This document shows positions 7,186-36,308 of a stretch of DNA of 64,000 nucleotides, piece after piece. Positions within the stretch are counted from its first letter, which is position 1. Each line of letters opens with the position of its first letter. The notes beneath the pieces are model-generated. The model was given only the letters and a program-made list of their open reading frames with translations. It ran no database searches and was not told where the DNA came from. Source of the DNA: a virus; the IMG/VR virus record IMGVR_UViG_3300025876_000006, positions 64,001-128,000 of that record. One strand, written 5' to 3'. Made by a program: the position numbers and the translations under genes.

Positions 7186-7193
7186 TATAAATA
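7186..7193 (+). promoter_or_regulatory. Late promoter TATAAATA of gene 13
   Basis: Perfect element, exactly 5 nt before ATG 7199. The predicted transcription start falls on or next to the A of the start codon. Confidence 0.75.
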
Positions 7194-34235: not shown

Positions 34236-34280
34236 ATGAGTACTGAGAAATATTTGTTACCAAACGAGAAGAAGCGTTTA
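34236..34280 (+). repeat. N-terminal cassette repeat, copy 1
   Basis: 45 bp identical to copy 2 (34580-34624) and four mismatches from copy 3 (35214-35258). All copies begin with the start codon. Confidence 0.95.
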
Positions 34281-34933: not shown

Positions 34934-35188
34934 ATGAAAAGCTTTAAACAATATTTAGAGGGATTGCGTATTGCTTATACTCCAGCTCAACAAAAAGCGA
35001 TGGATAAAAGGACAAATGCGATGAATTCAGATCTTAAGAAAAAGTTTAAAGCTGGAAAGATTTCAATTAAATGGTCTCAGACAAGAGGCGGTCACGCTAT
35101 CTTTGTTAAAGGTAGAATGGAAGGTCCTCTCTTTGATTCTGAAGATGACGCTGAAAAATATTTAAAAAAACTCGGTATTCGAGTATAA
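34934..35188 (+). CDS. Small basic protein with capsid-targeting-like N-terminus MKSFKQYLEG
   Basis: 84 residues, pI clearly basic. The first ten residues resemble T4 internal-protein targeting peptides (MKTYQEFIAE) and match the N-termini of genes at 52778, 56315 and 58867. The [L/I]xE site is imperfect here (YLE-G). The body contains KISIKWSQTRGGHAIFVKGRMEG and ends DAEKYLKKLGIRV. Its last 41 bp plus flanks recur at 35688-35728. Function unknown; it could bind DNA in the head. Confidence 0.6.
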   Translation: MKSFKQYLEGLRIAYTPAQQKAMDKRTNAMNSDLKKKFKAGKISIKWSQTRGGHAIFVKGRMEGPLFDSEDDAEKYLKKLGIRV

Positions 35189-35190
35189 AT
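35150..35190 (+). repeat. Direct repeat copy A (3' end of the gene at 34934)
   Basis: 41 bp covering the last 13 codons and the TATAAATT after them. 40 of 41 bases match 35688-35728. Confidence 0.9.
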
Positions 35191-35687: not shown

Positions 35688-35728
35688 GCTGAAAAATATT
35701 TAAAAAAACTCGGAATTCGAGTATAAAT
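35688..35728 (+). pseudogene. Direct repeat copy B: orphan 3' end of a 34934-type gene
   Basis: 40 of 41 bases match 35150-35190, including codons AEKYLKKLGIRV and stop, but no start or body is present. It is a gene-tail remnant. One base change makes the trailing TATAAATT a perfect TATAAATA, now the likely hsp20 late promoter. Confidence 0.85.
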
Positions 35729-35729
35729 A
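35722..35729 (+). promoter_or_regulatory. Late promoter TATAAATA of hsp20
   Basis: Perfect element 92 nt before ATG 35822, giving a structured leader of roughly 87 nt. Confidence 0.65.
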
Positions 35730-35734
35730 GATTT

Positions 35735-35821
35735 GTAATACGATACGTTTTCGTATTATAAAGAGGTGCCGAAAGGATCTCAATTAATAAAAAATAACTC
35801 GCTTAATAAGGAGTTCAAAAT
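35735..35821 (+). promoter_or_regulatory. ROSE-like RNA thermometer in the hsp20 leader
   Basis: The leader has an upstream hairpin (stem TAATACGA/TCGTATTA, 35736-35758) and a 3' hairpin at 35796-35815. In the latter, AACTC-G-CTT pairs with AAGGAGTT around an AAT loop: eight base pairs with one bulged G (35801). The paired 3' strand is the Shine-Dalgarno AAGGAG (35808-35813), 8 nt before the ATG. The anti-SD strand contains TCGCT, which fits the UYGCU motif of ROSE elements that control small heat-shock genes. Temperature control is inferred. Confidence 0.7.
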
Positions 35822-36253
35822 ATGACAATAACAAATACACTAAATTCGTTGCCGCGTTCTTTCGCGGTTGGGTTCGATTCAATCTTTGATAGATTAGAAT
35901 CAAGAGAGAAAGCATCTTATCCTCCTCACAATATTGTGAAGCATAATGAGGATGAGTTTGAAATCGCACTAGCAGTCGCAGGCTTCAGTGATAAAGATCT
36001 TTCCGTCAAACAAGACGGAGATCAACTTATCGTTGAATCTGATTGCGTTGAGCTTAATGGAGATAAAGAATATCTTCATAAAGGAATTGCTACTCGAAGT
36101 TTCATCAAGAAGTTTACATTAGCCGATCACATTCGTGTCGAGCAAGTAGCGCTTGTTGATGGTATACTTTCAGTTCTACTAAAGAAAGAAATTCCTGAAG
36201 AAATGAAACCTAAGAAGTTTACTATTCTTCCAGAGTTTATTAACGAAGATTAA
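35822..36253 (+). CDS. hsp20: Small heat-shock protein Hsp20
   Basis: 143 residues. Alpha-crystallin domain spans about residues 38-135: PPHNIVKHNEDEFEIALAVAGFSDKDLSVKQDGDQLIVES (described as the usual beta-strand pattern) and SFIKKFTLADHIRVEQVALVDGILSVLLKKEIP, with the A-x-x-x-G-V/I-L signature as VDGILSV. ATP-independent holdase that prevents aggregation. Hsp20 genes are frequent in marine T4-like phages. It has the best ribosome site in the window, buried in a thermometer-like hairpin, and a GAAA-capped terminator. Confidence 0.93.
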   Translation: MTITNTLNSLPRSFAVGFDSIFDRLESREKASYPPHNIVKHNEDEFEIALAVAGFSDKDLSVKQDGDQLIVESDCVELNGDKEYLHKGIATRSFIKKFTLADHIRVEQVALVDGILSVLLKKEIPEEMKPKKFTILPEFINED

Positions 36254-36274: not shown

Positions 36275-36308
36275 AAAAGGGTTCTTCAGAAATGAGGAGC
36301 CCTTTTTT
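36275..36308 (+). terminator. Rho-independent terminator after hsp20
   Basis: 14-bp stem from 36275 to 36306 with a GAAA tetraloop (36289-36292) and a six-T tail. The loop-closing bases (CA-GAAA-TG) are the same as in the gene 23 terminator. Confidence 0.93.

Follow-up and report, generated by a model that had tools for sequence, protein, structure and literature searches.

Bacteria switch on chaperone synthesis in warmth through ROSE-type RNA, and the question raised by the locus described here is whether a phage controls a chaperone gene of its own in the same way. The locus was identified in a window of 64,000 nucleotides (positions 64,001 to 128,000 of the IMG/VR record IMGVR_UViG_3300025876_000006, a record of 170,716 bases from a marine, T4-like phage). 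In this window, the 87 nucleotides at 35735-35821 constitute the leader of hsp20, a gene for a small heat shock protein (sHSP) with an ATG start codon at 35822. By its structure and conservation the leader is a ROSE-type RNA element, and we consider it probable that it serves as a phage-borne, short, multi-hairpin ROSE-like RNA thermometer that opens on warming and controls a late-expressed Hsp20. The leader and its gene contain the following features, given in window coordinates.

35735-35743 paired with 35751-35759, + strand: hairpin A, 9 bp, at the 5' end of the leader (fold prediction)
35763-35781, + strand: hairpin B, corresponding to ROSE hairpin I, GAGGU[G]CC-GAAA-GGAUCUC with the bulged G in brackets (fold and alignment to ROSE_3)
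35796-35815, + strand: hairpin C, corresponding to ROSE hairpin II, which sequesters the Shine-Dalgarno (SD) sequence (fold, alignment to ROSE_3 and phage-built model)
35799-35803, + strand: UCGCU, the U(U/C)GCU anti-SD motif of ROSE elements (sequence; published definition)
35808-35813, + strand: SD sequence AAGGAG, fully paired in the predicted minimum free energy and centroid folds
35822-36253, + strand: hsp20, 143 amino acids, sHSP (Pfam HSP20, E = 1.8e-14; PHROG 432, E = 2.5e-37)

The leader is predicted to fold into the three hairpins with a minimum free energy of -20.1 kcal/mol (z = -3.25), and none of 200 shuffled sequences folded equally well. Hairpin C is composed of AACUC[G]CUU (35796-35804), the loop AAU and AAGGAGUU (35808-35815), which form 8 bp with G35801 bulged. 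A preliminary description of the locus had proposed that the SD sequence is fully paired in such an 8-bp hairpin with a single bulged G, opposite to the UYGCU hallmark of ROSE elements, and the predicted fold and the sequence agree with this on both counts. It had also mentioned one second hairpin upstream; an upstream hairpin is indeed present, but there are two of them (A and B). Across 94 leaders, the columns of the motif contain U in 93, U or C in 68 and 26, respectively, G in 92, C in 94 and U in 91 cases. The bulged G35768 in hairpin B is likewise conserved, with a bulged G in 92 of the 94 leaders, and compensatory changes across phages were observed at all 11 pairs of its helix. Hairpin A was seen only in relatives of the window phage, one of which is L140, and in clade 2, the sister clade, its sequence has been rewritten and still forms a hairpin. 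The leader thus displays the traits of ROSE-like elements, that is, a location in the 5' untranslated region (UTR) of an sHSP gene, an SD sequence in the 3'-proximal hairpin, a U(U/C)GCU motif with a bulged G opposite the SD sequence, two to four hairpins with stable upstream ones (here A and B), and a conserved structure with compensatory changes.

We compared the leader to the ROSE models in Rfam. In a cmscan of the leader, the alignment covered the entire ROSE_3 model (RF02523; 1-69) and placed both hairpins in register, but the score was 18.2 bits as compared to a gathering cut-off of 43, and the window leader is therefore classified as ROSE-like only and not as a member of the Rfam ROSE_3 family. 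No match was obtained in a search of the window at the Rfam gathering thresholds, and a search with RF02523 across the whole record did not report the hsp20 leader site, although cmscan aligned it when given the leader. Among 33 phage and viral sources scanned, the ROSE_3 cut-off was passed solely by the viral relative L176 (46.1 vs. 43 bits), and L144 was near it (E = 5e-6). A phage covariance model was built from 26 viral hsp20 leaders, from which the window's own clade was left out except for the distant relative L141. With this model, the window hsp20 leader scored 30.8 bits and was the sole match in the window, while the next best site in the whole 170 kb record reached 16.3 bits. The model also recovers the leaders of ibpA and ibpB in E. 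coli, of which the former is annotated as ROSE_2 (RF01832) in Rfam. Support for the original assignment to ROSE thus comes from the alignment to ROSE_3, from relatives at or near the cut-off and from the recovery of E. coli ibpA. Another candidate family, freshwater-2 (RF02980), was rejected because it matched only the SD tail; its 3' end, AAAGGAGAAAACAAAUG, resembles the SD regions of many phages, but its hairpins are different ones and it has no ROSE motif.

The conservation of the leader was assessed in viral hsp20 loci that were collected by protein similarity alone, after which their leaders were read (n = 80). A U(U/C)GC motif followed by an SD sequence, at most 45 nt from the start, was present in 78 of the 80 leaders, and in the remaining two an A replaces the bulged G. 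The same motif was found at 16 of 243 other genes in those loci (Fisher p = 7e-56 vs. hsp20). In 94 of 95 sources, the phage-built model gave a match at the start of hsp20 with a score of 23.9-79 bits, and no other match in 347 kb exceeded 17.7 bits. In the leader alignment, 92.5% of the cells pair, and two-sided compensatory changes occur at 15 of 17 pairs. The covariation score was 0.528, as compared to 0.187 in shuffled alignments (0 of 500 shuffles reached 0.528) and at most 0.124 when the partners were slid; the alignment was fitted to the model and is biased towards it, and the slid controls are far lower regardless. The model also matched 23 of 24 named phage records, which are mostly cyanophages and not an unbiased census. 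The element was found in the cyanophages S-PM2, P-SSM4, P-HM1, S-ShM2, P-RSM1, S-SKS1 and ten more, as well as in the Pelagibacter phages HTVC008M, Mosig and HTVC115P and in Melnitz (Methylophilales), C48C1, Phosso (Sinorhizobium) and Paride (Pseudomonas). The match in S-H38 was weak (15.8 bits), and in S-TIM5 the element was not found when the named phages were scanned with this model. Conservation in related phage hsp20 leaders, on which the preliminary description had let its claim depend, is thus strongly positive. In P-HM1 (L220), the annotated GTG start of hsp20 at 487 falls inside the ROSE element, and translation probably begins at an ATG near 539 instead.

Whole-record scans with the model gave extra matches, two of which precede genes for small helical proteins (77 and 92 residues). 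When loci of this second family were gathered by protein, the element was located at the start codon in 43 of 49, and these leaders also show covariation. In L332-L390 (example L370:540-606), a ROSE-type leader precedes a conserved helical protein of about 90 amino acids on phage contigs that reach about 350 kb in size, and in L387-L390 such a leader is located before a second small protein. Matches to Pfam Phasin_2 are weak and were obtained for 4 of 13 family members (best E = 0.0038); that the protein is phasin-like is only a lead.

Outside phages, the element is also located on hsp20 genes of marine gamma-, beta- and some alphaproteobacteria. The bacterial matches L258, L273, L286, L287 and L306 were not counted as evidence for hosts, since they may be phage contigs in bacterial bins. 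The Pelagibacter hsp20 leaders that we examined gave no match to the phage-built model, whereas the Pelagibacter phages match. Those bacterial leaders have a related arrangement, AACGCUU...AAGGAGG, and they apparently represent another ROSE variant that falls outside the phage model. In the Pelagibacter leaders L237, L238, L246, L249 and L270, there is a seeming extra middle hairpin along with AACGCUUAAGGAGGUU (AAGGCUUAAGGAGGUU in L237). Phage and bacterial Hsp20s are interleaved in the protein tree, where well-supported branches force at least four changes of label, and the leader has therefore either been retained since old divergences or travelled together with the gene.

As a thermometer, the element would work as follows. 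Transcription from a late promoter would produce the 87-nt leader, in which the stable hairpin B would aid folding and stay folded, while the weak hairpin C would hold the SD sequence in a stem that is destabilized by the bulged G of UCGCU. Initiation by ribosomes would be prevented at low temperature; upon warming, hairpin C would open and free the SD sequence, and Hsp20 would be made when the late phage proteins most need a chaperone. Temperature sensing in the phage, the opening of the hairpin at physiological temperature and a benefit to the phage are what we infer here. Two-hairpin ROSE-like elements with the same parts in Pseudomonas are proven thermometers in which hairpin II melts while hairpin I stays (PMC3669281), and the U(U/C)GCU motif with its bulged G is the thermosensing core in published work on ROSE elements (PMC3669281). 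The calculated stability of hairpin II at 37 °C is similar in the window and in E. coli ibpA (-3.7 vs. -4.6 kcal/mol), and hairpins A and B stay folded in a Vienna melting calculation.

Several observations, including the low ROSE_3 score, speak against the thermometer or complicate it. The predicted opening of the SD sequence increases only from 0.02-0.04 at 5-20 °C to 0.12 at 42 °C. The melting curves are not discriminating and do not match the known behavior of E. coli ibpA; they are therefore no demonstration of thermosensing and were not used as proof. SD use in the lineage is at background level (4 of 63 open reading frames (ORFs) in the window vs. 6.5 expected), the start regions of the window phage being A-rich and G-poor upstream. 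As noted in the preliminary description, hardly any other gene combines a leader with a strong SD sequence, and among the 63 ORFs, AGGAG or a better match occurs at hsp20 only. In clade 2, the SD sequence is placed 16 nt from the AUG and the hairpin is intact, a misfit with plain SD unmasking. In loci of this clade (L011:4144-4247 and others), about 8 bases have been inserted between the SD sequence and the ATG. Given the background SD use and the clade 2 spacing, the hairpin therefore either blocks ribosome entry generally or is read by something else, for which Hsp20 itself is a candidate, and SD unmasking may not be the sole lever in this lineage. That the host belongs to an SD-independent lineage, such as Bacteroidota, is a guess.

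It is possible, though rather doubtful, that the leader serves primarily as an Hsp20 operator, in which case the chaperone would block its own translation until titrated by aggregated protein, and the leader would report misfolding, for example during mass capsid production. In E. coli, IbpA binds to the ibpA 5' UTR and thereby represses the translation of its own mRNA, for which R93 itself, the basic character of R97 and K98 and the aromatic character of Y34 are required (PMC10474464). The window Hsp20 contains Arg, Lys and Lys at the positions of R93, R97 and K98, in line with the residues needed for autoregulation of the IbpA type, and its Y33, the counterpart of Y34, is located within a matching YPPxN motif (YPPHN). 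Of 92 phage-group proteins, 85 retain the Arg at the R93 position, but this residue is common among sHSPs and may be kept for other reasons, and K98 is not conserved in most phage Hsp20 proteins. Clade 2, which retains the hairpin despite its badly spaced SD sequence, also favors an Hsp20 operator, whereas the published role of the bulged-G motif as a thermosensing core and the presence of the same leader on a second, unrelated gene family argue against it. Autoregulation by Hsp20 can coexist with the thermometer, and we regard it as a serious companion mechanism.

We find it unlikely that the element simply arrived with the gene and, in this lineage, now acts only as a fixed attenuator or a stable structure at the 5' end, the host being one that hardly uses SD sequences. 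The background SD use and the A-rich, G-poor starts are in line with such a relic, as is hairpin A, which is a stable 5' hairpin. However, while hairpin A has been rewritten between the clades, the stem of hairpin C is letter-identical in clade 2 and the window clade, and hairpin B has changed only from G-U to A-U, so selection is still acting. In the relative L140, moreover, the helix has changed on both sides to CCU[G]CCU with AGGAGG. An exceedingly improbable explanation is that a chance hairpin by the start codon has been over-read as ROSE; short AU-rich hairpins are common and the Rfam score taken alone is under the cut-off, but the specificity of the matches contradicts this explanation, and the conservation and covariation of the phage hsp20 leaders refute it.

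The thermometer reading was also compared to known systems. The Pseudomonas ibpA element (PMC3669281) shares with the window leader the two hairpins, the stable hairpin I, the short hairpin II with U(U/C)GCU opposite the SD sequence and the position before an sHSP gene, whereas the window leader is phage-borne, is preceded by a T4-type late promoter and has an extra 5' hairpin in its clade. The lambda cIII RNA thermosensor is also a phage RNA thermometer at a ribosome site (Altuvia 1989, per PMC4166951), but it has two alternative folds, acts in the opposite direction, is not a ROSE element and is not associated with a chaperone gene (PMC4166951). The cyanobacterial hsp17 thermometers control sHSP genes in relatives of cyanophage hosts (PMC4477652; PMC4166951), while the cyanophage leaders keep the two-hairpin ROSE plan instead. 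Full-text searches of the open-access literature gave no report of phage ROSE elements, which may have been reported elsewhere, and no leader analysis was found in the papers examined on cyanophage sHSPs or in the cyanophage core-genome paper. ROSE elements have so far been described as bacterial, and what is new here is the setting of a known kind of sensor, which is viral, driven by a late promoter, near-universal on phage hsp20 genes and present on a second gene. A plausible but tentative extension is that phages of several lineages and host groups, ranging in size from 54 kb (a Pelagibacter phage) to about 350 kb (contigs), keep ROSE-type sensors of their own as a standard control module, both on hsp20 and on a second gene for a small helical (possibly phasin-like) protein, and that these may read aggregation via Hsp20 in addition to temperature. 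The conserved leader on nearly all such phage hsp20 genes points to a likely mode of hsp20 control and provides a direct way to address how the chaperone output of phages could respond to ocean warming or to the stress of infection.

In the window, hsp20 is located between the DNA polymerase gene and a group of small genes; the polymerase shares 49% identity with its counterpart in phage C48C1. Two further features border the transcription unit.

35722-35729, + strand: TATAAATA, a T4-type late promoter (sequence; conserved in clade 2)
36279-36308, + strand: intrinsic-terminator-like hairpin GGGUUCUUC...GAGGAGCCC followed by U's (read from the sequence)

From TATAAATA, a late transcript start is predicted at about 35735 from what is established for T4 late promoters, and this position coincides with the left end of the leader as given in the preliminary description. 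The terminator-like hairpin would make hsp20 a one-gene unit. ATAAATA is present at -110 to -35 in 48 of the 80 viral hsp20 leaders, as compared to 2.9 in shuffles. Twelve TATAAATA sites were identified on the coding strand of the window, six of which are placed 5-8 nt before an ATG, as compared to 92 nt for hsp20. These are located at 7186, 20166, 34223 and 35201 (5 nt to the ATG), 41175 (7 nt) and 56299 (8 nt). Such an arrangement predicts leaderless or nearly leaderless late mRNAs, to which hsp20 would be an exception. A near-identical repeat of 29 bases is located at 35162-35190 and 35700-35728. Directly upstream of hsp20, it duplicates the 3' terminus of the gene at 34934-35188, and the late promoter there overlaps the TAA stop codon of this gene end.

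In T4-like cyanophages, hsp20 is a core gene for which a possible role in capsid maturation has been suggested (PMC3037559). In the Pelagibacter phage HTVC008M (L314, 11229-11432), ribosomal protein S21 is encoded two genes upstream of hsp20. Three adjacent small ORFs in the window (starts at 34236, 34580 and 35214) have the N-terminus MSTEKYLLPNEKK in common, and these N-termini, together with an LDE motif, resemble the capsid-targeting leaders of T4 internal proteins that are cut by the prohead protease.
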